A DNA stretch of 64,000 nucleotides from Streptomyces chumphonensis (GTDB lineage: Bacteria > Actinomycetota > Actinomycetes > Streptomycetales > Streptomycetaceae). A program made the translations under genes and the position numbers. Below the pieces are notes generated by a model. The model searched no databases, had not been told where the DNA came from, and saw only the letters and a program-made list of their open reading frames with translations. Where the stretch lies: contig NZ_JACXYU010000021.1 in NCBI RefSeq assembly GCF_014779715.1, positions 1 through 64,000 of the forward strand, written 5' to 3'. Below, piece after piece: positions 30,045-64,000 of this stretch (position 1 is the first letter of the stretch; each line of letters starts with the position of its first letter).

Positions 30045-31835
30045 TCAGGACGTGCGTGCCCGGGCGGGTGTGCTCTCCAGGGAGTTGAGGAGCTGGCCGA
30101 AGGTGATCTCCGTGTCGTCGTAGTCGAAGTTCACGGCGGCAGCGAGTGCCTCCCACCGAACGGTGCTGCGGCCGCAGTGTTCCAGCAAGGTCTGCAGGGC
30201 GATTTCGGGTTCGTGGTGGGCGAGGATCTCTTCGGCGGGGATCTGGCGCAGGTGCTCCAACGTTCGGTAGCGGGACTTCACGATGGCGCGGTAGACCTCG
30301 GAGCGGGAGAGGACGTCACCGGTGGCGGGGGAGTCGAGCCAGGACTGCAGAACGGCCGCCGGGTCGGGGTGCTTGCCTAGTTCGTCGTCGTCCACCAGCC
30401 GCACCACACCGTCATCCTCGTCTTCGGGGACCGGGACGGCGGCCGCCGCGGCCAGGAACCAGTCGGGCCCCTCGGCCTTCTCCGCGATCCAGGCGAGCTC
30501 GGCGGGGTGCAGCCCCTTCAGCACGTCCGAGACGGCGGTGCGAGGGGTGTGGGGGTTGGCCGCGAGGGTGGACAGGGCCTGGACCCGGCGGTGCTCGTAG
30601 TGGCGTTCCAGGAGCCGGGCCGGGCGGTCGTGGTCCGGATCGACGTTGTCGAGGACGCGGACCAGGGCCCGGCTCGGCGTGGGGGAAACGACGGCCGGCT
30701 GATCCAGCCGGGCGAGCTGGGCACATGCCCCGGCGAGGTGGTCGGGGTTGGCGCTCAGGAGCGCCAAGTCCTCGGCGAGGCGCAGGACGGGGCCGTCGAA
30801 CTCGTGGTCGCTCCCCGGCTCGTCGGAACAGGTGAGCAGCTGGCCGCGGGTGACGAGAGCGTCGGCGGCCGTGTGCAGTTGGTCGGCGGCGAGGGCGGCC
30901 AGTCGCGGGTTGCTGCGGACGCGGCTGGCGAGGTGGTGCAGGGTCCGGCGGGCGGTCACCTGCGGGTTGGGCAGGTCGGCCAGCTCGGACAGGCACAAGG
31001 CCGGAAGGCAGGCGAGCAGCACCTCCTCACTGAGCGCGGGTGCCGGGGCGGCGGGCACGTCCGCGCCGTCGGGGTCGGCGGCGCGGAGGCGGGCGTCCTG
31101 GAGGGCCTGCCTCTCGGCCTGGTCCAGCAGCAGGTGCTGGACAGCCGCCCCGAAGACGGGGTGAGCGGTGAGCTGCGGCCACCGCTCAGGGCAGCGGGCC
31201 AGCATCGCCCAGCCGGCGCGGCCGCCCAGCTCCAGCGACCAGTCCTTCGAGAACGCGGACCCCGGGCCTTCCCAGCCCTCTTTGGGCTCGGGGTGAAGCA
31301 GGTACGCGGCGAGCGGGGTGAGGCAGGCTTCCAGGACGGCGTCGAACAGTTCCGGCGGCACGGGCGGGGCCGGTGCGGCGCCCGTGCCGCGGGTGTAGCG
31401 GTCCAGATCCCAGTCCCGGACGACCTGCTCGACCTCGTGGCCGGGGAGGCGGGGCAGGAGCGCGATGGCCGCCTCGACCTGGCCGGGGTGCCGTGCCAGC
31501 GCGGCGATCAGCCCGGCCCAGACCCGGCGGTGCCGCAGGATGGCGGGTACGTCGGCTGCAGTCACGGCGCCGTCGGCCGCCAGGGTAGCCAGCGTCTTCT
31601 CGTCGACGTGCACCAGGAGCTGTCCGCGCAGCCGCTTCCCAGAGGTCCTGGTCAGCAGCGCAGGCAGCGCGGCCTTGAGCGCTTCCTCCCGCCATCGGTC
31701 GGCCTGATCGTCGAAGCCACCCTGTCTCGTCGCCGGGGCGCACAGGGCGTCGATCACCGTCTTGAGTGCTTCCTTCGGGAGGTCTTCGCTCATCGCGAGA
31801 TCTCGCCACAGCGGGTACGTACGGGCGTTGACCAT
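30045..31835 (-). CDS. Large helical-repeat protein of unknown function
   Basis: A 596-residue protein starting at the ATG at 31835 (GGGAGGGG upstream). It is helical throughout, with repeated short helices containing Leu, Ala, Arg and Pro (LLVHVDEKTLATLAADGAVT, LRHRRVWAGLIAALARHPGQ, VQALSTLAANPHTPRTAVSD), giving the look of a HEAT- or leucine-rich-repeat-variant solenoid: units such as LAANPHTPRTAVSDVLKGLH are typical of such repeats. Acidic turns (PVPEDEDDGVVRLVDDDE) separate parts. It would be a scaffold for protein binding. No catalytic domain is apparent. It stands alone, convergent with the putative initiator. Confidence 0.65.
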   Translation of the reverse strand: MVNARTYPLWRDLAMSEDLPKEALKTVIDALCAPATRQGGFDDQADRWREEALKAALPALLTRTSGKRLRGQLLVHVDEKTLATLAADGAVTAADVPAILRHRRVWAGLIAALARHPGQVEAAIALLPRLPGHEVEQVVRDWDLDRYTRGTGAAPAPPVPPELFDAVLEACLTPLAAYLLHPEPKEGWEGPGSAFSKDWSLELGGRAGWAMLARCPERWPQLTAHPVFGAAVQHLLLDQAERQALQDARLRAADPDGADVPAAPAPALSEEVLLACLPALCLSELADLPNPQVTARRTLHHLASRVRSNPRLAALAADQLHTAADALVTRGQLLTCSDEPGSDHEFDGPVLRLAEDLALLSANPDHLAGACAQLARLDQPAVVSPTPSRALVRVLDNVDPDHDRPARLLERHYEHRRVQALSTLAANPHTPRTAVSDVLKGLHPAELAWIAEKAEGPDWFLAAAAAVPVPEDEDDGVVRLVDDDELGKHPDPAAVLQSWLDSPATGDVLSRSEVYRAIVKSRYRTLEHLRQIPAEEILAHHEPEIALQTLLEHCGRSTVRWEALAAAVNFDYDDTEITFGQLLNSLESTPARARTS

Positions 31836-32557
31836 CCTTGTGTCCCCTCCCTGTCTGACCGGGCGTGACTGCCGGGTCGCCATCCGTAGAAGCGACCGTA
31901 CGGCGCAGCAGGGGCGCAGTGGGAGGCGATCCATGAAGTTGTCCCGCTGTGCGCCCGGGACCGCACCGCCGCACCGTGTCGCCCGCCGGGGCAACGCTGC
32001 GTCCTTCGGTACAGCGACGGGTCAAGCGCGGAGGCGAACATCCCCCCCATCGCGAGCGGACGCTGGCGGCGAAGAAGGCAGCGGCGCCGAGGTGAGGTGA
32101 GTCCGGGGACCGTCACGCTCCCGCTCTCATGCCCATAGTGCCGTCCCTACGTGGTTTCGGATCCAGCGTCTCGCGCTGCACTGTCCCACGCCGCCCGCGC
32201 CGGACTGACCGCACGTCAGCCGAACCACCGAGCAGCGGGGGGCGAACGCCCCCGCCGTGGAACTGCTGGCGAACCTCGTCGGCACGCGCGGCGAACGCCA
32301 ATCAACTTTCCGCAGTCGGTCCCACTGCACCGGGCCCCGCTCGACAACGGCCGCCCACGCGAGGCGCTCGACTGGGATACCCCAGCCGAGCGCCTCGCGT
32401 GATCTACTCACCACCTCAAACCAGGTGGTGTTGCGATGCCCCCTTGAACCCGAGGGCGCCGCCATGGCTGCCGGGGCCTCGGTTACCTGCGCTGGGCCAT
32501 GAATCGCAGGTTGAGGAAGCTGGCGCAGCTCACCTCGACGGTGTTTCCCGCGGTCAG
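31836..32557. other. Non-coding stretch with a 21-bp hairpin
   Basis: No frame here has coding character. The main structure is at 32356-32401: CACGCGAGGCGCTCGACTGGG and its near-perfect complement (one mismatch) flank a four-base loop, ATAC. A smaller repeat, CCACCTC-N6-AGGTGG, follows at about 32411. The promoter of the 596-residue gene should lie near 31850-31950 but is not evident. Confidence 0.5.
32356..32401. repeat. Long tight hairpin, 21-bp stem and 4-base loop
   Basis: The arms 32356-32376 and 32381-32401 pair at 20 of 21 positions. No gene ends within 150 bases on either side except the small leftward gene starting at 32764 and ending at 32558, for which it would be a distant terminator. 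It may instead be a cruciform or protein-binding site. Confidence 0.65.
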
Positions 32558-34882: not shown

Positions 34883-34909
34883 GGCTTGGTTCCTCTCGTC
34901 TGCTCAGGC

Positions 34910-35251
34910 TCAGTGGGCGAACGCTTCGGTCAAACTGATGCGGTAGCCGTCCTCTTCCATCAGCACGACGGTGACGCCGAACGGGTCGGGGCGATCCAGC
35001 TCGATGGGGGTGAAGGAGAAGTTCACCGCAGCCTGGAACGGCGGCACCAGTTCGCCGCCGGGCTGCGGCGCGGGGGCCGGCTTCCAGCCGGGGGCGACCG
35101 AACCCCAGCCTTCGTCCGCGCCGGCCACCGCGGCGATGTTCGCGGGTTCGGCGATTCCGGCGAGCGCGTCCTCGCCGACCTTGAGTGGGCGGACCCAGAC
35201 CAGCCCGACCAGCTCGCTGCGCGCCAGCGGCATCATCAACGGGCGCGGCAC
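34910..35251 (-). CDS. Hypothetical protein upstream of the DUF4231-like gene
   Basis: About 113 residues (or 108 from the ATG pair at 35236). It ends 27 bases before the DUF4231-like start, so the two are probably one transcript. It carries SELVGLVWVRPLKVGEDALA and, near the end, PDPFGVTVVLMEEDGYRISL, a mixed strand/helix fold without membrane segments. It might be a regulator or sensor for the membrane protein. Family unknown. Confidence 0.5.
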   Translation of the reverse strand: MPRPLMMPLARSELVGLVWVRPLKVGEDALAGIAEPANIAAVAGADEGWGSVAPGWKPAPAPQPGGELVPPFQAAVNFSFTPIELDRPDPFGVTVVLMEEDGYRISLTEAFAH

Positions 35252-35570
35252 GCCCCCTCACCCAGCGAGGCGGTGCACGTCTCCTGCGCGACGCCAACCA
35301 GACCGTTCCACATCCGCTTGTCCACGGAAGCCCCCACATCTCGACTGTTCGTGATCACAGGCGACCCTGCCACGTGGAGTGATGCGGCGTCAGGCCGATG
35401 ATCGGACAGCCCCTTCAAGCGGCGAATGCTGGGCTGACGGAAGGGGGCGCCGCCAGACAGCGCCATGTGGCGTGAATCACAACACATGTCGGGAGAATGA
35501 GTGCCGGATCAGCTCTCTCCCGCCGCAGGTAGGTGAACAGACTTAACCCAAGCAACAAAGGAGGCCCGAG

Positions 35571-37103
35571 ATGCCTGCGGCTTCAACGCCGGACTCGGCA
35601 CCCGAGGATGCCGCTCAGCGGATCGCTGCAGCACCGTCCGAGGCACCAGGAGCGCCGCTCGTTCCCTCAGCGGAAGGATGCGGCTCGCCCGAGAACTCCG
35701 ACGCGCGACAAACTGGGCGACGCCGGACCCGCAGCGCCGATGGACCGGGCCGGGCCAGCCTGGCCATGGATGGGTCCAATCTGGAACATGGCGCCGTCTC
35801 ACTGCTTGACGACGCCGACCTGCACGCGGGCGGCCTGGCTGACGTCGTGGACACGGCGGCCTTCTGGTCTGGCGTCAGCGACTCCTTCCAACCGCTGGTC
35901 GGTCTCAGCACGATGCTCAGCGAGTTCACCGCGCAGGCGAACTTCGGCCTCGCCCCAGCTCTCGCCGGCATCGGGCTGGCAGCTCCTCGGCTACCCAACA
36001 TCGAAGAGATCGTCGGCCAGTCGCTGCCGGACGGGCTGGGGGCGCGCAATGCCGCACTGTCGGCGCTGGCCGACGTACAGCCCCAGATGCTCTCGCTGTC
36101 AGAGACCGTGAACTCCGTACTGCCCTCCGTCACGAACACGCTGGGACGGCTGGACGGACTCCACTCGGCCAGGTCGGTTCTTTCCGTATACGAGCCGCAG
36201 GTCAGTCGCCTGGCGAGCGTGGTGGGAGCAGCCGGTCAGACATCACTGGCCGACGCCTTCCAGCCGCTGATCGGTCTCGGTGAATACGTTCGTCAGTCCC
36301 ACTTCGGCCTGGCGCCGCTACTCGAAGGCATCCCGGCTCTGCTTGACCCGCTGCCCAGTCTGGCGAAGATGACAGAGACGCTTCCACCATGCTTCGCCAT
36401 TGGGGCGGAAGTGCCGCGGATGATGCAGGAGATTCTGCGCACCCTGCCGTCGATGGCGGACTTCATCGGTGGCCATATGGCCGATCTCTTCACCGGAGTC
36501 CAGACTGTCGCCGACTGGGCGACGCGGCTGAGGCCGTCCGTTCTTGCCGAGGCTCGCTACGCCTTCGCCGCGTATAGCAAGGGCGACACGGAGCCGATGA
36601 AGGACTTCCTGCGCCGCTGTCTGCGTCTGTGGCCGGTGCTTGAGGACCACTGTCAGGCCCTGGCTGTGGCGATGTTCGAGGGCACGTGGGAGCAGGAGGC
36701 CGATCTCACCGATGATCAGTCGGTGCGCAAGGTCCTGGTCCGGTACGCCCGCCAGGGCTGCGACTTCGAACGCGATCACCAGATCCGCGGTGCCTCGATC
36801 GGTTACATCCCGGAGGGCTGGGAGCAGCCGGACACCAGGCCCGGGCCGGAGGATCTGGTGATCCCCCGCCTCGTTCCCTGGGCCCAGCGGTTCGAGACGG
36901 CTCCGGTGCGCTACGTGGCAGGCCGGCTCAACGAGCAGGAACAGGCCTTGGCCCGTGTCTGGTCGGAGAACCCTCCCATGACGTGGCTCAAAGCATCGAA
37001 TCTGGTTGAGCAGGATGAGGCGCAACGAGAGCGGGCCCGACGCAAACTGCGCCGGCTCGGCAAGGAGTGGCGCAGGCGCGAGAACCTCCAGGAGCTGTCG
37101 TGA
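35571..37103 (+). CDS. 510-residue protein with duplicated segment
   Basis: Starts at the ATG at 35571 with AAAGGAGG ideally placed. The first 75 residues are disordered. Two related segments follow: one with SDSFQPLVGLSTMLSEFTAQ and ANFGLAPALAGI (about 100-140), the other with ADAFQPLIGLGEYVRQSHFG and LAPLLEGIPALL (about 225-260), so an internal duplication of about 125 residues. The C-terminal 200 residues are soluble, with WPVLEDHCQALAVAMFEGTW and a basic helical end (QRERARRKLRRLGKEWRRRE) that looks like a winged helix. Its stop overlaps the start of a small membrane protein. A membrane-active or phage-related role is possible but nothing proves it. Confidence 0.7.
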   Translation: MPAASTPDSAPEDAAQRIAAAPSEAPGAPLVPSAEGCGSPENSDARQTGRRRTRSADGPGRASLAMDGSNLEHGAVSLLDDADLHAGGLADVVDTAAFWSGVSDSFQPLVGLSTMLSEFTAQANFGLAPALAGIGLAAPRLPNIEEIVGQSLPDGLGARNAALSALADVQPQMLSLSETVNSVLPSVTNTLGRLDGLHSARSVLSVYEPQVSRLASVVGAAGQTSLADAFQPLIGLGEYVRQSHFGLAPLLEGIPALLDPLPSLAKMTETLPPCFAIGAEVPRMMQEILRTLPSMADFIGGHMADLFTGVQTVADWATRLRPSVLAEARYAFAAYSKGDTEPMKDFLRRCLRLWPVLEDHCQALAVAMFEGTWEQEADLTDDQSVRKVLVRYARQGCDFERDHQIRGASIGYIPEGWEQPDTRPGPEDLVIPRLVPWAQRFETAPVRYVAGRLNEQEQALARVWSENPPMTWLKASNLVEQDEAQRERARRKLRRLGKEWRRRENLQELS

Positions 37104-37297
37104 GTGCGCCGTCCGACCGATCGCAGGAGCCGCTGATGACGGTGCGGGCCGCGGTCATCCTGATGCTGGGCACGCAGGTCGCCGTGGCCGCTGGTGTGCT
37201 GACCGTGCTGGCAGGGAACGCTTGGGCTGTCGGGGTACTGGCTGCCGGGGGCGCCTTCGCGAGCGCTGTCGCCTTCGCACGGTCCGTGATCGGCTGA
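37100..37297 (+). CDS. Small two-helix membrane protein
   Basis: A 65-residue protein from the GTG that overlaps the upstream stop (GTGA). After a short polar start it has two hydrophobic helices, TVRAAVILMLGTQVAVAAGV and GVLAAGGAFASAVAFA. It is clearly related to the protein at 57234-57437 (TLRTAVILALGCTIAASTAV): same length, same P-L-M-T-x-R-x-A-V-I-L start. Both are coupled to a soluble partner, upstream here and downstream there. Confidence 0.65.
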   Translation: MSAPSDRSQEPLMTVRAAVILMLGTQVAVAAGVLTVLAGNAWAVGVLAAGGAFASAVAFARSVIG

Positions 37298-37600
37298 ACC
37301 GGCCCTGGTCGAACAGGACGCACCGGGCCAGCGGCCTCGGGTTCGCCTACTGCCGCGACCGCGGATGGCGCGCGGACGGCCTGGAGGTGGAGCTGCCCGA
37401 CGTCGGCTACTGCGAACTGGACCTCCTGTGACCCGTTCCTGCGGGTTCCGGACGCGAAATACCTTGACAGGAACCGGAGTTGGCCTGGGGCAATCTACGG
37501 TGGCGTGAAGCGTTCTTCCGCCCCGGGCCGCAGGTGCAGCACCCGGCCGGGGCGGGGAGAGAAGACACGTCACCTTCTGATCGCGACCGGGGCGGGGCTT
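37298..37600. other. Gap with a truncated gene tail and a weak terminator
   Basis: A frame ending at the TGA at 37431 reads GLGFAYCRDRGWRADGLEVE and then LPDVGYCELDLL, which looks like the C-terminus of a lost gene (two Cys, well-formed strands). ACCCG/CGGGT just after it (37432-37447) forms a short hairpin. A TTGACA lies near 37474 but no -10 is well spaced; the 37601 gene must be started from here. Confidence 0.4.
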
Positions 37601-54570: not shown

Positions 54571-55085
54571 CCCTACGACCGTCCCGGCGGAACCGTCCCG
54601 GCCGGGGACCGCTCCTTCACCTTAGGGTTCGAGCCCACTGGTTGGTGGGTTCGAACTGTTCGTCCCCGACAGCGTTGCCCTGACAGGTCATCATCCTCAT
54701 CGCGGCGGCGGTAGTTATCTGGGCGTGCCGGAAGGCGTCTGGCACGTTCTGGCAAGTAGCCCGTAACGCCCGTGCCTTGCAGATATCTGCGGGTTGTGCA
54801 GGCACGTACGGCACGTTTGGAAAGTGGGCACTGACCTTTGGCTTCGGTTCAACCGGGACGAGGTCACGCAGCAGACGCCATAGCCCATCGGGAGCAGGAG
54901 CGCGGCGGCACCGCTTTCCAGGGGCCTCCTGTTGCTGTCTGCCCCGCGGCCGAGCTGCCGCACCCGGCAGTGGCAGAGGCTTCGGCGGACAGAGTCTCCG
55001 CCACGGTCCTTGTCTGAACCGGCACCGGCCGACAGCACGTCCTTGTTCGTATCTGCTCGACACTCTCCCGCGGAGCCGCTGCACT
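54571..55085. other. Intergenic gap after the Gabija-like operon
   Basis: About 515 bases without a clear gene. GTTCGAGCCCAC (54627-54638) and GTGGGTTCGAAC (54645-54656) form a stem with one mismatch, 57 bases after the GajB stop, and may be its terminator. CCTTGCAGATATCTGCGGG near 54776 is a short palindrome (GCAGATATCTGC), possibly an operator. The rightward pentapeptide-repeat gene must be started from here. Confidence 0.45.
54627..54656. terminator. Candidate terminator of the Gabija-like operon
   Basis: GTTCGAGCCCAC pairs with GTGGGTTCGAAC with one mismatch and a six-base loop. The GGTTCGA parts look like tRNA T-arms, but no tRNA can be folded around them. Confidence 0.5.
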
Positions 55086-56837
55086 ATGAGCACGCCCTTT
55101 CCGCCCTCCTGGCCGTGCTGCGGACACGGTGCGGACCCGTCCACCGACCCGGACGGCTGCACCGGTATCCGCGTCCCCGGCCACACCACATGCCTGGCCC
55201 ACCTCACCGACACCGACCGCACCACCTACCTGACCAGCCTGACCCCCGGCATCGACATCGACCACCGCGGCACCCCCTTCACCGACGATCTACTGCAAGC
55301 CCTCCTCAACGCCCTCCGCGACCCCACCACCAACACCCCCCACATCGGCGCCGCCGAGTTCGGCGGGGCGCAGTTCTCCGGCCCAGCCCTGTTCGGCGGG
55401 GCGAAGTTCTCCGGCCCCGCCCGGTTCGTCGGTGCTCATTTCTCCAGCCGTGCCCGGTTCGACGGGGCGCAGTTCTCCAGCGAAGTCGCGTTCGCCGGTG
55501 CTCATTTCTCCAGCTTCACCAGGTTCGACGAGGCGCGGTTCTACGACCGCGTCGGGTTTAGCGGGGCGCAGTTCTCTGGTACGGCCTGGTTTGTCGGGGC
55601 GCAGTTCTCTAGTACCGCCTGGTTTGGCGGTGCTCGGTTCTCCGACAGCGTCGATTTCGGCGGGGCGCGCTTCTCCGGCTGTGCCGGGTATACCGGAGCG
55701 CGGTTTGAGGGTGTGTCGGCGTTGGGGCCGTTGGTGGCGGGAACGGTGGAGTTGTCGGGGGCGGTGTTTGTGCTGCCGGTGACGTTGGAGTTGGCCGCAG
55801 CGGAGGTGGTGTGTGAGCGAACGAGGTGGGAGTCGACGGCGACCGTGCGAGTGCGGTACGCGGCCGTGGACCTCAGCCACGCGGTCCTGACCGCCCCCGT
55901 CGCGGTCACCACCCACCGCACCCCCTTCACCTACGGCAACAGCGCGGTGCGTGAGGACCTACTGGTGTGCTCTGGCCAGACGCCGAGTGTCTCGGGCCGG
56001 GTGCAGGTCGTCTCAGTGCAGGGCGTGGACGCCGCGCACCTGGTCCTGACCGACACCGACCTGACCGACTGCCGGTTCTCCGGGGCCTTCCACCTCGACC
56101 AGATCCGCCTGGAAGGCCGCACCACCTTCGCCAACACCCCCACCGGGTGGCACCGCCGCGGCGTGCGGCCCATCCGCTTCACCCGTCGGCGTGTCCTCGC
56201 CGAGGAACACCACTGGCGCGCCCACACCACTGGCCCCAGTCCGCATGGATGGCATGGTGGACCGCACCCCACCGACCCCGCCCGTACCCCCGATCCGGAA
56301 GACGTCGCCGCCCTGTACCGGCAGCTGCGCAAAGCGTTCGAAGACGGCAAGAACGAACCCGGCGCCGCCGACTTCTACTACGGCGAATGCGAGATGCGCC
56401 GTCACGACACAACCGGCACCACGAAGGGCGAACGCCTCCTGCTGCGGGGGTACTGGTTGCTGTCCGGCTACGGCGTACGCGCCTCCCGCGCCTTCACCTG
56501 GCTCCTCGCCGCCATGAGCGTAACCGTGCTGCTCCTGATGGGGGTCGGCGTGCCCACCGACGACCCCGACCCCGCCACCACCGGCACCCTCCACGGCGGC
56601 AAGATCAGCCTGACGACCAAGGCCCCCGCCCCAGTCCTGAGCGGCGGCTGGTCGCAGCGGCTGTCCTGGAAACGCGCGGAGAAGGCCACCCGCATCGCCG
56701 TCAACTCGGTCATCTTCCGCTCCAGCGGCCAGAACCTCACCACCACCGGCACCTACATCGAGATGACCTCCCGCCTCCTCGAACCCACCCTCCTCGCCCT
56801 CGGTGTCCTTGCCATCCGCGGACGCATCAAACGCTGA
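55086..56837 (+). CDS. Pentapeptide-repeat membrane protein
   Basis: A 583-residue protein; the ATG at 55086 starts a Cys-containing lead (PPSWPCCGHGADPSTDPDGC). Residues about 90-210 hold some 22 pentapeptide repeats of the A-x-F-x-x/x-x-x-F-x-G type, written in ten-residue doublets (AQFSGTAWFVG, AQFSSTAWFGG, ARFSDSVDFGG), which wind into a four-sided beta helix. More diverged repeats follow. Residues 440-480 (VAALYRQLRKAFEDGKNEPG and FYYGECEMRRHD) are the linker usual in this architecture, and two membrane helices end it (WLLAAMSVTVLLLMGVG; LLEPTLLALGVLAIRGR). Such proteins are thought to be membrane channels or signal platforms. Whether it belongs to the neighbouring defence genes is open. 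Confidence 0.8.
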   Translation: MSTPFPPSWPCCGHGADPSTDPDGCTGIRVPGHTTCLAHLTDTDRTTYLTSLTPGIDIDHRGTPFTDDLLQALLNALRDPTTNTPHIGAAEFGGAQFSGPALFGGAKFSGPARFVGAHFSSRARFDGAQFSSEVAFAGAHFSSFTRFDEARFYDRVGFSGAQFSGTAWFVGAQFSSTAWFGGARFSDSVDFGGARFSGCAGYTGARFEGVSALGPLVAGTVELSGAVFVLPVTLELAAAEVVCERTRWESTATVRVRYAAVDLSHAVLTAPVAVTTHRTPFTYGNSAVREDLLVCSGQTPSVSGRVQVVSVQGVDAAHLVLTDTDLTDCRFSGAFHLDQIRLEGRTTFANTPTGWHRRGVRPIRFTRRRVLAEEHHWRAHTTGPSPHGWHGGPHPTDPARTPDPEDVAALYRQLRKAFEDGKNEPGAADFYYGECEMRRHDTTGTTKGERLLLRGYWLLSGYGVRASRAFTWLLAAMSVTVLLLMGVGVPTDDPDPATTGTLHGGKISLTTKAPAPVLSGGWSQRLSWKRAEKATRIAVNSVIFRSSGQNLTTTGTYIEMTSRLLEPTLLALGVLAIRGRIKR

Positions 56838-57233: not shown

Positions 57234-57437
57234 GTGAACGGCCCGCTGATGACGCTGCGCACCGCCGTCATCCTTGCCCTCGGCTGCACCATCGCCGCAA
57301 GCACCGCCGTGCTCACCATCCTCACCGGCAGCAGCACCGTCCAAGCTCTGCTGGCCGCCGGTGCCGTGTTCGGCACCGCGGTGCCTGCTTTGCACTGCCT
57401 GATCGCCACCGACCGGTCGGAGGCCGACCGTGGCTGA
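57234..57437 (+). CDS. Small two-helix membrane protein coupled to a regulator
   Basis: A 67-residue protein from the GTG at 57234, with GGAGG nine bases before. Two hydrophobic helices: TLRTAVILALGCTIAASTAV and VQALLAAGAVFGTAVPALHC. It is a paralogue of the protein at 37100-37297. It overlaps the next gene by eight bases, so the two are made together; the regulator downstream could be tethered to or sense the membrane through it. Confidence 0.65.
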   Translation: MNGPLMTLRTAVILALGCTIAASTAVLTILTGSSTVQALLAAGAVFGTAVPALHCLIATDRSEADRG

Positions 57438-58569
57438 CCTTCGTCCGCTGGCCGCCGATCTGCCGCCCCAGTGCCACGCTCTGGCCCACGAACTCCGGAT
57501 GCTCTTCACTGACCTGGGCATCTCGGTGCGCCGCTACGCCGCACGTCGGCGCCGCGACCCCGGAGCGCTCTCCCGCTACCTCAACGGCACCCGTGTCCCA
57601 CCGTGGGAAGTCGTCATGGACCTGTTCACCGATCTCGCCGAACACCGCGGCCGCCCGGTTACCCCCGAGACCATCGAGCATCTACGCCTCCTACACCGCA
57701 CCGCCGTGGAAGCCGGCAGCTCACCACGGCACGCCACCGAACTGCTCGCCCAGCAACTTGCCGACGCCGACCGAACCTCCCGCCGCTCCACTGCCCACGG
57801 TGACGTCCTGGAAGAGGCCCTCCTGGACCGCAGCCACCGCATCGCCGACCTGGAGGTACGGCTGAACCAGCTCGAGGCGGACTGGGCCACTGAACGAACC
57901 CGCGCCGACCGGCTCGAAGCCGAGTGGGGCGACGCAGCGGCCCTGCGCCAAGAACGCGACCGCCTCCGCACAGAAGTCACCCAGCTCACCACCGACCTCG
58001 CTGACGCACAGCGCCGCCGCGACGAAGCCGAGGCCCGCTGCGCCCTGTTGGAGAGGCAGATGGAACTGGTGGAGCAACACAACGCGGCCGACCTCGAGCA
58101 CCCACTGCCGCTCTCTCCCACGAGCGGACCGAGGGAAGCACTTCCCAAGATCCTCATCGTGGACGATCAGCAGCAGAACATCCTGGCCCTCACCGCCGTC
58201 CTGGACAACCTCGACCAGGAACTCGTGGTCGCTTCCTCCGGGCGGGCAGCGCTCAAGGCGCTGCTGGACCACGACGACTTCGCCGTGATCATCCTGGACG
58301 TTCAGATGCCGGAGATGGACGGCTACGAGACCGCCGCCCACATCAAGCGACGGACCCGCACCCGCGACATACCCATCATCTTCCTCACCGCGATGGGCAT
58401 CGACGCAGAACACAGCGCCCGCGGATACGCTGCTGGCGCCGTGGACTACATCAGCAAGCCCTTCGACCCCTGGGCCCTACGCGCCAAGGTCGCCGTCTTC
58501 ACCGACCTCTTCCTCGAACGCAGAGGCAACCGCCAACCCAACGCCGACCGCTCCCACGCCGCCCAGTGA
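57430..58569 (+). CDS. HTH, coiled-coil and receiver-domain regulator
   Basis: A 379-residue cytoplasmic protein with an unusual order. Residues 10-75 are an HTH related to XRE (FTDLGISVRRYAARRRRDPG and LSRYLNGTRVPPWEVVMDLF). Residues 125-220 are a coiled coil (LEVRLNQLEADWATERTRAD). Residues 238-365 are a response-regulator receiver: KILIVDDQQQNILALTAVLD with the acidic pair, the phospho-acceptor Asp in VIILDVQMPEMDGYETAAHI, the Thr in IIFLTAMG and the Lys in YISKPFDPWALRAK. All catalytic residues are present. No histidine kinase gene is in the window. Receivers are normally N-terminal, so this C-terminal placement is notable. The start GTG overlaps the small membrane protein gene. Confidence 0.85.
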   Translation: MADLRPLAADLPPQCHALAHELRMLFTDLGISVRRYAARRRRDPGALSRYLNGTRVPPWEVVMDLFTDLAEHRGRPVTPETIEHLRLLHRTAVEAGSSPRHATELLAQQLADADRTSRRSTAHGDVLEEALLDRSHRIADLEVRLNQLEADWATERTRADRLEAEWGDAAALRQERDRLRTEVTQLTTDLADAQRRRDEAEARCALLERQMELVEQHNAADLEHPLPLSPTSGPREALPKILIVDDQQQNILALTAVLDNLDQELVVASSGRAALKALLDHDDFAVIILDVQMPEMDGYETAAHIKRRTRTRDIPIIFLTAMGIDAEHSARGYAAGAVDYISKPFDPWALRAKVAVFTDLFLERRGNRQPNADRSHAAQ

Positions 58570-59616: not shown

Positions 59617-59963
59617 CACCCTCTCCCTCCAGCATCCACCTACCCGGCGGCCCGTGCCTGCCGGACAGAAGGCACCGGACCGCGAGGAGGACGCTTCGGC
59701 GCGGTGCCCAAGGCGCGAACCGACCTCACGTCAGCCCGGGCCCCGGGAGTGGCCGCCGCAACGGCAGCCTCGGACGCACAGGAGATCACCATCACGCCGG
59801 GCGCCCACCAGCCGAATGTCTGGTCAGCGTGCCCTGTGTATCGGACACCTCGCCGGACCTGCAGCGATGCCGCATCGGAAGTACGCGAGGTGTGCTCTGT
59901 GCAGTACACCCTCAAGCACACCTCGCGCACACCCGCGGGACACCGTCGGCGGCGAGTGCGTCC
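59617..59963. other. Gap without a visible gene
   Basis: About 345 bases between two leftward genes. Frames on both strands are open but lack coding bias. The promoter of the small Gly-rich gene should be here; no clear hexamers were found. Confidence 0.35.
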
Positions 59964-60428
59964 TCAGGAGGGGTCGGCCGACGCCTTCGGGCGGCGCAGG
60001 GTGTCGAGCAGCGGTGACGAGAGGGTCGGCGGCAGGAGCCACAGGCCGGCGATGCCGATGGTCGTGACCATCGTGGTCAGCAGCACGGCGACGACGTCGC
60101 GGTGCGGGGAGCCGAAGAAGCCGGCCATCAGGGACATGGCGACGACGAAGACCATCACGAACCGCCAGCCCTTGCGGCCCAGCAGGAACGGACGGTCCTC
60201 GGTGCTCCACCACCAGGACGTGCTGGAGAGCGTAGTGAAGCTGAACGCCGTGAGCGGGACGACGATCGGCAGCCAGAAGCCCGTGTCGTCGTCGGCGGGC
60301 AGATGCTGGCCCCAGCGGTCGCCCATGTGGTGCAGGAACCACAGGTACAGCGGGATGCTCACGAGCGCGTAGAGCCACAGCACCACCCGCATCGCCCAGT
60401 CGGCCGGGCCCTTCTTCTCCTTGGCCAT
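59964..60428 (-). CDS. Four-helix membrane protein
   Basis: A 154-residue integral membrane protein from the ATG at 60428. It opens AKEKKGPADWAMRVVLWLYA and has four hydrophobic segments: VLWLYALVSIPLYLWFLHHM, FWLPIVVPLTAFSFTTLS, FVMVFVVAMSLMAGFFG and LLTTMVTTIGIAGLWLLPP. Its C-terminus is basic and cytoplasmic. I recognise no family. It lies just outside the left end of the Tn7-like element, whose insertion begins about 45 bases upstream of its start. Confidence 0.65.
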   Translation of the reverse strand: MAKEKKGPADWAMRVVLWLYALVSIPLYLWFLHHMGDRWGQHLPADDDTGFWLPIVVPLTAFSFTTLSSTSWWWSTEDRPFLLGRKGWRFVMVFVVAMSLMAGFFGSPHRDVVAVLLTTMVTTIGIAGLWLLPPTLSSPLLDTLRRPKASADPS

Positions 60429-60474
60429 GGTCACGACGGTAGCGACCAGCGTCTCGGGCCGGTGCACGTTGACC

Positions 60475-60519
60475 CGTCGCAGTGAAGGTTGAGTGATTCT
60501 CATCGAAGGTTGAGCGATG
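60475..60519. repeat. Tn7-like element end (left copy 1)
   Basis: CGTCGCAGTGAAGGTTGAG followed by TGATT, and a second unit TCGAAGGTTGAGCGATG at 60503-60519. The unit GAAGGTTGAG recurs at 62436 in the same orientation and three times inverted at 63716-63789. Direct-repeat arrays inside inverted ends are the transposase-binding sites of Tn7-like elements. Confidence 0.65.
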
Positions 60520-60539
60520 TTGCGCTGGACCTTGGCGTC

Positions 60540-61136
60540 CTATTTGGCTTCGTTTGGCTGCTCGGCGGAGCGGGAGCGTCGGTGGGCTGCGACTCGTTCG
60601 CGGGTCGCGCATCGGCGGGAGCAGTAGCGACGCTCCGGACCGCTGCCCTGGTTGATGAAGACGTTTTGGCAGGTGGGGGATGTGCAGATCCTGCCGGGTG
60701 GTCGTTGGCGGTCCCAGACGAGAACGGTCAGGGCCATGCAGGACGAGGCGAGGAGCCACTCGTTCCAGGGGGCGTTGTCCTCGCGGTCGAGGTGGGGGTG
60801 CCAGGGGGTGCTGCCGCTGTGTGAGGTCAGGCGGAGCGGTCCGGTGTGGTCCGTCAAGAGCTGGTTGAGGGTGGCCGCGGCGTCATCGACATGCTCGGCA
60901 GCGAAGACTGGCCGCAGCAGGGAGGCAGCCGCCTGCATCTCTGCGATATCGAGGGTGGTGAGGTCAACGGGGTCGGTCTCGCCGTATGCGCGGAGCACGT
61001 CGGCGACGTCAGCCGGGTCGGGGCAGCCGTCAGAGAGAGCGTTGATCAGGGCGGCGGTGCGCCGGGCTGTGGTCAGCACGGAGTGCCGGGTGGACCAATC
61101 GTCGCTGTGGAATGACACCTGTGGAATGTAACGCAT
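60540..61136 (-). CDS. CGNR zinc-finger (ABATE-like) transcriptional regulator
   Basis: A 198-residue regulator. The C-terminal CGNR finger reads RICTSPTCQNVFINQ ... RRYCSRRCATRERVAAHRR, four Cys for zinc then an R-x-R-x-x-x-H/R DNA-contacting helix. The N-terminal part (TARRTAALINALSDGCPDPA, then LRPVFAAEHVDDAAATLNQL) is the ABATE-type ligand-binding region. It is divergent from an MFS exporter gene with 38 bases between, which holds a GTTAC-N4-GTAAC inverted repeat, so it most likely regulates the exporter in response to its substrate. Confidence 0.85.
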   Translation of the reverse strand: MRYIPQVSFHSDDWSTRHSVLTTARRTAALINALSDGCPDPADVADVLRAYGETDPVDLTTLDIAEMQAAASLLRPVFAAEHVDDAAATLNQLLTDHTGPLRLTSHSGSTPWHPHLDREDNAPWNEWLLASSCMALTVLVWDRQRPPGRICTSPTCQNVFINQGSGPERRYCSRRCATRERVAAHRRSRSAEQPNEAK

Positions 61137-61151
61137 CTTGCGAAGCTTTGA

Positions 61152-61165
61152 GTTACCTCCGTAAC
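61152..61165. promoter_or_regulatory. Inverted repeat in the CGNR/MFS promoter region
   Basis: GTTAC-CTCC-GTAAC, nine bases before the exporter ATG; TGTAACGC lies 20 bases to the left as a possible second half. Probable operator of the CGNR regulator. Confidence 0.5.
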
Positions 61166-61174
61166 GTCCTGCTG

Positions 61175-62380
61175 ATGGGAAAGCGTTACTCACTCCGCTT
61201 CTATCTCGTCGGTGCGGTGGCAGCCCGTGCCGGGGACGAGATGTCGGGACCGGCACTGATGCTGACAGCATTTGCTGTGACCGGATCGACCATCGCCGCG
61301 TCATCGCTGCTCGCGGCTATCACGATCTCTGCTGCGGTAGGGGGGCCGGTGCTCGGGGCGCTCCTCGACAGAAGGGATCGGCCGGGACGCCTGCTGGCTG
61401 GGGCCCTCGTCCTGTATGCGGTGGGGCTGGGGATGATCCTTGGGGGACTCGACCGGTGGCCGTTCGCTGTCACGATCTTGATCGCAGCGGTGACAGGGCT
61501 GCTTGGGCCGGCGCTGTCGGGGGGATGGACGGCCCAACTTCCGCGTGTGGTGGAGGGTGACCACCTGCCCCGAGCGAATGCCCTGGATGCCATGACGTTC
61601 AACATGGCAGGTCTGGCCGGTCCGGCTCTCGCTGGCGGTGTGGCAGAGGCGCTAGGCGCTCCGACGGCCGTGGTGGTCTCTGCGGTGCTCATCGCCTTGG
61701 CGCTGCCCGCCGCATGGATGCTGCCCGCCCGTCCAGGCCGAGTGCTCGCAGTGCAAGCAACTTCGCTGACCAGAGACCTTGTTGCCGGAGTGCGGGTCAT
61801 ACTCGGAAGACCGTCCTTGGCCCGAGCCACTCTCACCTCGACCGTCTCCTGCATCGCGCAGGGAATGCTGATGGCGTGCATCCCGCTCCTCGGCGAACGT
61901 GTTCTGGGCGGGGCCAGCCGCGGTGCGATGCTGCTCTCCTGCGTGGCGATCGCAGCTTTGGTGGCCAACGCCGTACTCGCCGGGTTCCCGCGTTCAATCA
62001 CCCCCGACACGATCATCTGGGCCAGTTCCCTTGTCCAGGCTGCCGCGCTGGCGTTGGCCGCGTGGGCTCAACCAGTCGTACTCATTGTGGCCGTACTCAT
62101 CGTGGGGATAGGGGAAGGACCTCAACTGGCCGCCTTGTTCACTGTCCGCCACCGGGAAGCCCCAGACCACCTACGAGGCCAGATCTTCACCACCGGCGCC
62201 AGCCTGAAGATCACCGGATTTGCCCTGGGTGCAGCGGTTGCCGGACCAGCCGCAGTTTGGTCTCTTCCAGGCACGCTGGCACTCGCAGCGAGCGTGGCGG
62301 CCGTCGCAGCACTGATCTTCTTCGTGATCCCGTCGGGCGCCAACCGCCAACTCGTCCGGGGTCAGCACATGTCGACTTGA
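61175..62380 (+). CDS. MFS transporter
   Basis: A 401-residue inner-membrane transporter from the ATG at 61175. Twelve hydrophobic segments can be counted, from YLVGAVAARAGDEMSGPALM to ALAASVAAVAALIFFVIP. The cytoplasmic loop between segments 2 and 3, GPVLGALLDRRDRPGRLLAG, is MFS motif A (G-x-x-x-D-R-x-x-R-R). The family exports drugs or metabolites; the nearest functional class is the enterobactin/macrolide-exporter-like group with a short central loop. It is cargo between two copies of the element's left end and is presumably controlled by the divergent CGNR regulator. Confidence 0.85.
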   Translation: MGKRYSLRFYLVGAVAARAGDEMSGPALMLTAFAVTGSTIAASSLLAAITISAAVGGPVLGALLDRRDRPGRLLAGALVLYAVGLGMILGGLDRWPFAVTILIAAVTGLLGPALSGGWTAQLPRVVEGDHLPRANALDAMTFNMAGLAGPALAGGVAEALGAPTAVVVSAVLIALALPAAWMLPARPGRVLAVQATSLTRDLVAGVRVILGRPSLARATLTSTVSCIAQGMLMACIPLLGERVLGGASRGAMLLSCVAIAALVANAVLAGFPRSITPDTIIWASSLVQAAALALAAWAQPVVLIVAVLIVGIGEGPQLAALFTVRHREAPDHLRGQIFTTGASLKITGFALGAAVAGPAAVWSLPGTLALAASVAAVAALIFFVIPSGANRQLVRGQHMST

Positions 62381-62407
62381 GCGGTCTCCACGAGGAAACT
62401 GATGACC

Positions 62408-62452
62408 TGTCGCAGTGAAAGGAGGGCAGTTCTCGGCGAAGGTTGAGTGATT
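62408..62452. repeat. Tn7-like element end (left copy 2)
   Basis: TGTCGCAGTGAAAGG (62408-62422) and, 13 bases on, GCGAAGGTTGAGTGATT (62436-62452). Same orientation and nearly the same sequence as the copy at 60475, except that the first unit is partly lost (GAAAGGAGG for GAAGGTTGAG). The tnsA stop codon lies in the second unit. Confidence 0.65.
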
Positions 62453-63689
62453 ACTCCCGGCTGCGTCGCTCCTTCTTGAGCCGGTTGGACCGCCTGCTGT
62501 GGCAGAGGGTTGAGCAGGTTAGGCGTATTTGCTTGTTGCGTCCTGGTTCCAGCGGCCCGGAGCATTCGGTGCAGGCTGTCGGCTGGTGCCGGAGAGGGAT
62601 GTCCCCGGCTGCTCGGCGGCGCATGTAGGCGATGTGGCAGCAGCGGTCGGAGCACCATCGTCGCCGGCCGGCTTCGAGCGGAGCGTCGAGTACCTCGAAG
62701 TCCTCATCACCCAGCAGCACTGCCAGCGGGACGTCCCGCAGCGAGTCGTCTTCATTGGTCAGCGTCACCGCACGAGCGGACACCGCGAGCACCGCCCGGA
62801 CCTGGCCGGCGAACCGCACCCGATCGCCCACACCGACCGTTGCCGGCCTCGACAGCTTGCGCATCTGGCTCCCATCACCGTGCATGCCCGACCTCGGCCG
62901 AAGCAGGCCGTGCCCCCCGGCTCGCCGCTGCAGCCCGACGACATGACCTTCCGACGTGTGGACCACCGTGCCACTGCTCAGCAGAGCACCACCAAGGTCA
63001 GCGCGAAGTGCCCCCTTCCAGAGCAGGTGGAGCAGGACAGGCATGACGCGCAGAACGTTCCCCGCCGCTTCGGCTCCTGCCCGCAGTTCCTGAGGCTGCC
63101 GGAAGACCTCCACCAGGCGCTCGGCGATGTCGCTCTCACGGCCGCACCGGCCGTGCCGGTAGCGGGCCAGCCACCGCACGTTCGCCATGAACACCGGATC
63201 CGGAACACCGACGTGCGCGTACTCCCAGCCCACCGCCGAACAGGCCCGCTGGGTAGCGGCGAACGCTTCCGCGGTCCGCTCGTCGACATCGTCCTCGGCG
63301 CGGACATCGACCACCCGGACACGTCCGTCGGCCAGCCGTACGAAGTAGTCGGGCGCATGCCGCCGCTTCACTTTCGCGTCGCGCCAGTGAAGCCAGAACG
63401 GCTGTGAGGCGATCCCCACCAAATCTGGGACGAAGTCCAGCAGGATCAGCCGGTCCCGCTCCAGCCACGACTCGTAGCCCACATGACTGCCCGTGGTCGC
63501 CGTGTAATACCAGCCCGCGAAGCCGCGGCCACCCTTGTTCCACCGGAACCCGCGTACAGGGGCTACGTCCTCGAACCGGACATCCCACCCGGATCCCAGT
63601 GCAATGCGTCGACGCCGACCGCTGTCGAAGAAGTCCAGTTCAAAGGCGCTCAGCGCAGGATCGCCGTACGCGCCTACCGGTTCCCCCAC
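62451..63689 (-). CDS. tnsA: TnsA-like endonuclease fused to a TnsB N-terminus and zinc finger
   Basis: A 412-residue chimera. Residues 1-280 are TnsA-like: FRWNKGGRGFAGWYYTATTG, then GYESWLERDRLILLDFVPDL with the catalytic Glu (about 73), RRHAPDYFVRLADG with the Asp (about 111) and VRVVDVRAED where TnsA has its Lys motif. Residues 287-335, VGVGDRVRFAGQVRAVLAVS and then DVPLAVLLGDEDFEVLDAP, match the start of the TnsB/Mu-type transposase that normally follows as a separate gene. Residues 340-412 hold unrelated Cys clusters (RWCSDRCCHIAYMRRRAAGD, CTECSGPL, CSTLCHSRRS). TnsA cleaves the 5' ends in cut-and-paste Tn7-type transposition with TnsB and TnsC, which are absent, so the element is not autonomous. 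Confidence 0.75.
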   Translation of the reverse strand: MGEPVGAYGDPALSAFELDFFDSGRRRRIALGSGWDVRFEDVAPVRGFRWNKGGRGFAGWYYTATTGSHVGYESWLERDRLILLDFVPDLVGIASQPFWLHWRDAKVKRRHAPDYFVRLADGRVRVVDVRAEDDVDERTAEAFAATQRACSAVGWEYAHVGVPDPVFMANVRWLARYRHGRCGRESDIAERLVEVFRQPQELRAGAEAAGNVLRVMPVLLHLLWKGALRADLGGALLSSGTVVHTSEGHVVGLQRRAGGHGLLRPRSGMHGDGSQMRKLSRPATVGVGDRVRFAGQVRAVLAVSARAVTLTNEDDSLRDVPLAVLLGDEDFEVLDAPLEAGRRRWCSDRCCHIAYMRRRAAGDIPLRHQPTACTECSGPLEPGRNKQIRLTCSTLCHSRRSNRLKKERRSRE

Positions 63690-63715
63690 CGTCTCCCCAG
63701 ACAGTCAGCCTCAAA

Positions 63716-63789
63716 CGATCACTCAACCTTCGGTGAGAAACCTAGCGGTCACCAACCTTCGATGACAACGCTCAACCTTCGCTGCGAGA
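63716..63789. repeat. Tn7-like element end (right, three units)
   Basis: CGATCACTCAACCTTCGGTG (63716-63735), GGTCACCAACCTTCGATG (63747-63764) and AACGCTCAACCTTCGCTG (63767-63784) are inverted copies of the left-end units, and the outer CTGCGAGA is the complement of TCTCGCAG, like CGTCGCAG and TGTCGCAG on the left. The outer boundary is near 63789. Confidence 0.65.
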
Positions 63790-63865
63790 GGTCAGGGGTG
63801 TTTGCGATGGTCGGATCGCAATCCCGTCCCGTGCCCACGCATCCCTACCCGGCTCTATGCGTGGG

Positions 63866-63894
63866 TTAAATCCAGGGATAAAATATGGTAGTGT
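63866..63894 (+). promoter_or_regulatory. Candidate promoter of the right-edge gene
   Basis: TTAAAT (63866-63871), 17 bases, TAGTGT (63889-63894), in a locally AT-rich stretch (GGGATAAAATATGG), 22 bases before the ATG. GGAGGTGAG follows as ribosome site. Confidence 0.4.
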
Positions 63895-63916
63895 CTGGGA
63901 TGGAGGTGAGGCTGGG

Positions 63917-64000
63917 ATGGCCACCGAGGAAGAGCTGTTCGCGTCTGTCGACGCGCTGCTGGAGGAAGAGCCGCAGCTGCCGCCACCGGCGGAGCGGGCC
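63917..64000 (+). CDS. N-terminus of an HTH (Tap-like) protein, continues beyond the window
   Basis: The first 28 codons read ATEEELFASVDALLEEEPQL and then PPPAERA. GGAGGTGAG precedes the ATG. Telomere-associated proteins (Tap) of Streptomyces linear replicons, and other plasmid HTH proteins, begin in this way: an F/V-D-A-L-L-E-E helix, a P-P-x-E/AER turn and then an XRE HTH. The small protein at 26406 has the same lead (VNALLDDVLPAPHVRQQLR). If it is Tap, a telomere and tpg should be close to the right. Only the N-terminus is seen, so the family is provisional. Confidence 0.5.
   Translation, partial: MATEEELFASVDALLEEEPQLPPPAERA

Follow-up and report, generated by a model that had tools for sequence, protein, structure and literature searches.

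An internally deleted Tn7-like element with exporter cargo upstream of the telomere-associated protein gene tap in Streptomyces chumphonensis

Near the end of a 64,000-nucleotide stretch of Streptomyces chumphonensis DNA (contig NZ_JACXYU010000021.1, positions 1 to 64,000, forward strand; hereafter the window), short repeats in both orientations enclose a divergent regulator-exporter gene pair and an open reading frame (ORF) related to the transposition protein TnsA. The repeats end just upstream of tap, a telomere-maintenance gene of linear plasmids and chromosomes. We analyze this region as a defective Tn7-like transposon, principally by comparison with the element at locus L010 of Streptomyces sp. 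WAC 04229. Its features, in window coordinates, are as follows.

60470 to 63794, no strand: whole element, an internally deleted Tn7-like transposon of the TnsAB type, 3325 bp, TGACC...GGTCA; bounded by inverted-repeat arms, the limits of identity to L010 and an uninterrupted left-flank homologue in S. albidoflavus plasmids.
60470 to 60518, forward: outer left end, terminal TGACC and two TnsB-type repeats; from the repeat search, with the same end found alongside 5-bp duplications in L010, G291 and NBC_01450.
60540 to 61136, reverse: cargo, CGNR zinc-finger regulator (ABATE/zf-CGNR; Pfam PF11706, 1.3e-10, and PF07336), its start set by an annotated 597-nt orthologue.
61175 to 62380, forward: cargo, major facilitator superfamily (MFS) exporter, divergent from the CGNR gene; Pfam MFS_1, 5.3e-24, and TIGR00900, antiporter-like.
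62403 to 62451, forward: inner, fossil left end, with the outermost repeat degenerate and the second intact; from the repeat family and alignment, L010 counterpart at 13133-13189.
62451 to 63689, reverse: fusion ORF, 412 aa, TnsA (residues 1-338) and a TniQ2 zinc-finger tail (about 74 aa); from the NF033179 match and comparison of the tail with L010 and L011 TniQ2.
62685 to 62688, no strand: deletion junction with 4-bp microhomology; from alignment to L010.
63722 to 63794, reverse: right end, three TnsB-type repeats and terminal GGTCA; near-identical in L010, NBC_01136, L011 and G291.
63795 to 63916, forward: tap upstream region and presumed attachment side; 122 bp separate the right end from the tap ATG; from alignment and empty sites.
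63917 to 64000, forward: start of tap (telomere-associated protein gene), which continues past the window, with tpg next; Tap 83-85% and Tpg 78% to L010.

The repeat GAAGGTTGAG occurs in five exact copies in the window (60484, 60505 and 62438 on the forward strand, 63722 and 63771 on the reverse), all of them within 3.3 kb (60484-63780), and allowing at most one mismatch it yields 11 matches in the window against 2.5 ± 1.7 expected. With a sixth copy, CGAAGGTTGGT, at about 63751 on the reverse strand, the set comprises two repeats at the outer left end, one at the inner left end and three at the right end. The original prediction had described repeat units at these left, inner and right positions, at coordinates that prove 2 bp low, and had read them as inverted transposon ends; the ends are real but lie about 5 bp further out on each side than described, the inverted repeat running out to TGACC (60470) and GGTCA (63794) with 24-nt arms (60470-60493 and 63771-63794) that are 88% identical. 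These termini, like the right ends of relatives, which start TG[A/T]YC, fit the TG...CA type expected of transposon ends, and arrays in inverted orientation with such termini stand at both ends, as in a Tn7-like derivative. Identity to the L010 element, at about 98%, breaks off precisely at 60470 and 63794. The closeness of the repeats to the tap-tpg locus would also suit iterons, that is, a plasmid replication or operator array and not transposon ends. We give that reading next to no credence: the arrangement is inverted, the identity boundaries at TGACC and GGTCA are sharp, relatives carry 5-bp duplications, and empty sites in relatives refute a replication or operator array.

The L010 element is 7228 bp long and consists, in order, of right end, tnsAB, tnsC, tniQ1, tniQ2, inner left end, MFS gene, CGNR gene and outer left end. 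TnsA and TnsB form a single 959-aa ORF there (Pfam TnsA-like_N, HTH, Mu-transpos_C and, weakly, rve), the gene set also matches Pfam TniB and TniQ, and searches of the Protein Data Bank match TnsB and TnsC of other Tn7-like systems. The element is undeleted, with a frameshift in the zinc-finger tail of TniQ2, and its activity is putative. The window copy is 97.9% and 98.6% identical to it over the two shared parts that flank a single 3.9-kb deletion, which took the rest of tnsAB, tnsC, tniQ1 and most of tniQ2; it is thus an internal-deletion derivative of a near-identical undeleted parent, and of the TniQ/TnsD selectors it keeps the TniQ2 zinc-finger tail only.

The 412-aa ORF matches NF033179 (TnsA_like_Actin) over residues 35-243 with 285.8 bits (E 1.7e-85), passing the curated cut-off of 110 bits. 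This confirms the TnsA that had been reported as the only transposition gene left, but the ORF is a composite, in which residues 1-338 are TnsA and the remaining 74 aa are, in frame, the TniQ2 zinc-finger tail (91% to L010 TniQ2, with a match to the tail of L011 TniQ2 too). The lone-looking tnsA is evidently a deletion scar of a TnsAB fusion gene, and the window element belongs to a known kind, as a defective copy whose parent is clear. The prediction of a defective Tn7-like element with exporter cargo and a genuine second left end holds. The in-frame fusion over 412 codons, with the TniQ2 tail in its authentic frame at the point where the L010 copy has a 4-nt frameshift, might suggest that the element works in its present form and that the fusion protein, domesticated or regulatory, interferes with related elements as they come in. 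We judge this very improbable: a join would be in frame by chance in one case of three, TnsB and TnsC, the only known partners, are absent, and in G291 and G116 the deletions and decay are different ones. Internal deletion or truncation of tnsAB was also observed in L056, L025, L072 and L079.

Protein searches of the element and the host genome found neither TnsB (DDE transposase) nor TnsC (AAA+ regulator), the positive controls G278, G204 and G291 being matched; TniQ1, found in control G278, was not found in the host genome, nor was a second copy of the element ends. A Pfam PF09299 search gave no match in the host genome and none in the control genomes either, and was replaced by these controlled searches. 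The element therefore lacks all three components of autonomy (TnsB, TnsC and a TniQ/TnsD selector) and is present as a single copy without a target duplication. With no TnsB or TnsC in the genome, the window copy is unable to move by itself. Its ends appear intact, and TnsAB, TnsC and TniQ of another strain could move it; mobilization in trans, as originally proposed, would thus depend on such foreign machinery, this genome offering none.

Aligned over 49 nt, the inner left-end copy is 78% identical to the outer one. In the cargo-less element L012, which has its own CCGAG duplication, the sole left end stands directly after tniQ2, the place occupied by the inner end in L010 and the window, where cargo and a fresh left end lie outside the decayed inner one. 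Since the undeleted L010 has both left ends, the extra end predates the deletion; the duplicated left end of the original prediction is hence genuine but inherited from the undeleted parent, not arisen in this copy, and the inner end is a decayed fossil older than the deletion. In L010, CCTGA is repeated on both sides of the outer ends as a perfect 5-bp duplication. The NBC_01450 element (TnsB 88%, TnsC 87%) has a decayed repeat after TniQ, followed by a different MFS gene (27% identity to the window MFS) and an outer left end, and its TCTGG duplication likewise surrounds the outer ends; further 5-bp duplications are GACCG in L017 and CCTCT in G291. Duplications around the outer ends in L010 and NBC_01450 make the larger, cargo-bearing unit the one that moves, which bears out the earlier suggestion of an alternative end and capture of flanking DNA. 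In NBC_01450 (L147 5995-12661, NZ_CP109481.1) about 5.6 kb of other DNA splits tnsA behind its codon 78.

A competing account would have a separate element, consisting of the outer left end with CGNR/MFS, inserted beside or into a complete older one and moving independently. The presence of two left ends speaks for it, as do the tandem neighbours of these elements (another element's end adjoins G291 and the right flanks of L036 and L030) and the occurrence in NBC_01643 of a left end with the CGNR/MFS module and no tnsA. However, the interval from the inner left end to the MFS gene contains no second right end, and the 5-bp duplications of L010 and NBC_01450 enclose the whole composite unit. 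Nesting may be the origin of the structure, yet it does not describe the present unit of movement, and we find it quite unlikely. In the history we prefer, an ancestral element would have acquired the exporter module and, outside its original left end, a second one. The simplest route, given tandem neighbours at the same sites (G291, L030, L036), would be the insertion of two elements in tandem and a deletion between them, TnsAB thereafter using the outer end. Tandem arrays do form at the sites of these elements. End-to-end neighbours with the end of a diverged element were seen in L036 (about 7890), L030 (about 6690) and L111 (8900-8965).

As to the cargo, the divergent arrangement suggests that the MFS gene may be regulated by the CGNR protein. 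A CGNR match occurs in 46 of 296 genomes, and CGNR/MFS is a common divergent pair in Streptomyces, with no recognisable end adjoining the pair at most of the loci examined; the pair was for this reason rejected as proof of an element. CGNR/MFS together with a left end is carried by G291, G116, NBC_01643 and NBC_01136, G291 being an element with a TnsAB deletion and G116 retaining decayed TnsA and TniQ remnants. The states of these four indicate that transposition genes have evidently been lost more than once with ends and cargo kept, and decay by internal loss seems frequent in this transposon family. Taken together, the fossil inner end and the target duplications at the outer end illustrate a way in which such elements can acquire genes that lie next to them.

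The fixed position of the right end relative to tap had been missed: the tap ATG is 122 bp away in the window, 127 bp away in L010 and 119 bp away in NBC_01136, and the orientation is identical in all three. Uninterrupted homologues of the L010 site are found in linear plasmids of NBC_01562 and S. longwoodensis. Sequences resembling tap were matched in at least 393 plasmid records. Whereas the window and L010 elements are 98% identical, their tap genes are 85% and their spacers 51% identical, and tap of NBC_01136 is 65% identical to that of L010. With tap and spacer so much less alike than the elements, independent insertion at one site would explain the tap-side data best, and both tap and the aconitase gene acnA are conserved genes from which independent insertions keep a fixed distance. 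It could be argued instead that a single insertion in front of tap was passed down to both the window and L010, the element being kept alike by selection or gene exchange and no tap targeting being involved, as their common orientation, nearly equal distance to tap and partly collinear replicons would allow. We hold this to be unlikely, since the 98% identity of the elements includes non-coding and decayed parts, the right end of NBC_01136 lies at the same spot beside a much more divergent tap, and the left flanks of window and L010 are unrelated. The NBC_01136 right end, with a TniQ remnant, precedes tap at 238 kb of a megaplasmid (NZ_CP108633.1; L124 11829-12106), which at 742 kb carries a left end, CGNR/MFS, two TniQ, TnsC and a TnsB fragment (L120 8986-14337).

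At acnA, the acnA-side flank is common to 19 of the 79 loci of the genome collection (acnA is present in 21), and where an end could be recognised or read it lies 30-37 nt beyond CTAGTAC upstream of the gene. Between L010, at tap, and L011, L012 and G291, at acnA, TnsB is 89-90% and TnsC 82-85% identical, whereas TniQ1 is only 38% identical; the similarity of TniQ1 falls mostly in the N-terminal TniQ domain, and the acnA-type C-terminal part is longer. The acnA-type TniQ1 proteins are 71-92% identical to one another. Because TniQ2 differs between L011 and L012, both at acnA, TniQ1 is the better selector candidate, a role suggested by correlation from one tap-type protein. On linear replicons it would guide tap-type elements to a fixed point some 120 bp ahead of tap, and its acnA-type counterpart would direct close relatives upstream of acnA. 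For TnsD, the C-terminal region has been proposed to recognise the attachment site (Faure et al. 2023, PMC10293859). The pattern of flanks further implies at least two more apparently fixed sites, used by groups of eight and seven loci.

The acnA upstream site is used by L011-L013, L050, L051, L053, L054, L057, L058, L062, L065, L071, L074, L076, L081, L082, L084, L086, L088, L111 and L112, and several acnA loci, occupied by diverged TnsAB-type elements, have the palindrome TATCTCGATGTCGAGATA just before the attachment site. One common right-end flank unites the eight elements L052, L055, L059, L060, L063, L066, L068 and L080; another unites the seven elements L018, L021, L025, L031, L067, L070 and L073, several of which have a repeated ATCGTTGA/TCAACGAT motif in that flank.

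We consider it highly probable that an actinobacterial Tn7-like transposon with a TnsAB fusion, TnsC and two TniQ proteins is represented at window positions 60470-63794 by a copy that has suffered an internal deletion and is not autonomous, with the history and targeting set out here. Several points weigh against this account. The window copy has no target duplication, its flanks reading CACGT and GGGGT where a 5-bp duplication had been sought; the tandem-insertion route to the outer end has not been observed step by step; the tap target is drawn from three right ends, among which only L010 has a complete element with a duplication; and the fusion ORF is a predicted one, read from sequence. 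Moreover, the tap-type TniQ1 is known only from L010, its homologues of about 45-54% do not lie beside tap in the regions fetched, and no tap was found next to those in G273, G204, NBC_01201 and NBC_01455.

The absence of a target duplication, combined with flanks from different loci, indicates that the left junction of the window copy has evidently been rearranged. The left flank (59958-60470) belongs to a different plasmid locus, uninterrupted across 60470 in S. albidoflavus plasmids, where 1.6 kb separate it from a block corresponding to window 34907-37332, in another order than in the window. The element and a block matching window 30076-31942 are separated by 235 bp in the collinear WAC 04229 replicon and by 28.5 kb in the window, 31942-60470 being 28.5 kb set between blocks that neighbour the tap locus in the WAC 04229 replicon. 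Uninterrupted homologous sequence across the boundaries, named beforehand as evidence that would speak against the element, in fact favours it by providing empty sites for the left flank and the tap target. The later change at the left junction would be due to recombination between two copies or to a transposase-made adjacent deletion, and would have removed one half of each original site along with the target duplication; the data fit both. No second copy of the element was found near the synteny break at 31942, where a GCGACGGGTCA resemblance near 32020 is short and was judged to be chance. The tap-side left half of the original site was not found in the host genome in a search without a positive control, and the sequence beyond the left-flank locus was not found there as such, the matches being the window's own 31 bp and two weak ones.

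With E. coli Tn7 (TnsABCD) the elements share TG...CA ends, arrays of TnsB sites, a 5-bp duplication, a TniQ-family selector and insertion at a set distance from a conserved gene. The Tn7 site lies downstream of the glmS 3' end, whereas the elements considered here go in upstream of promoters (of tap or acnA) and have their tnsA end beside the gene. Like miniature inverted-repeat transposable element (MITE)-like derivatives, the window copy has kept both ends, has lost its transposase by internal deletion and is in principle mobilisable in trans, but unlike them it has intact cargo genes and a remnant transposition ORF and is single in the genome. Actinobacterial Tn7-like transposons with the NF033179 TnsA have the same TnsA family, TnsB/TnsC/TniQ set, end repeat arrays, 5-bp duplications and site-specific insertion; the window copy differs in lacking TnsB, TnsC and TniQ1, and its family in having TnsAB in one ORF, two TniQ genes and a site upstream of tap. 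Tandem tniQ genes, and a selector C-terminal part thought to recognise the site, are shared with the dual TniQ-TnsD elements (Faure et al. 2023, PMC10293859), although here TniQ1 differs between the tap and acnA types while TnsB and TnsC stay close. The likely home of the element is the Actinobacteria-dominated clade 2 of Tn7-like transposons (Benler et al. 2021, PMC8649781), which had no experimentally characterised member as of that survey; the same survey found plasmid insertions unexplained by TnsE and suggested plasmid target selectors not yet known.

No report of a Tn7-like element at the aconitase gene or tap was found in the literature searched, and as far as that literature goes three features are new: a tap site at a fixed position on linear replicons, the association of that site with a different TniQ1, and the capture of exporter cargo by use of an outer end. 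We are evenly divided on the broader proposition that one branch within the actinobacterial Tn7-like transposons has switched selector, homes to the tap promoter region, rides linear plasmids and chromosomes without TnsE, and repeatedly adds an exporter and a fresh outer left end, leaving the old end as a fossil. The tap gene offers a concrete, testable plasmid-borne attachment site, and the tap-type and acnA-type TniQ1 on nearly the same TnsAB-TnsC core constitute a natural experiment on selector exchange.

Elsewhere in the window, positions 57430-58569 (forward) encode a 379-aa protein that matches HTH_31 at its N-terminus and ends in a response-regulator receiver domain, the part between them being coiled-coil-like; for a regulator this domain order is unusual. 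An ORF at 54777-56837 (forward) has pentapeptide-like repeats (GA.F/RF.GA.FS) and hydrophobic segments toward its C-terminus, and a tRNA-Leu (gag) gene lies at 15757-15849 (forward) on this plasmid-like contig.

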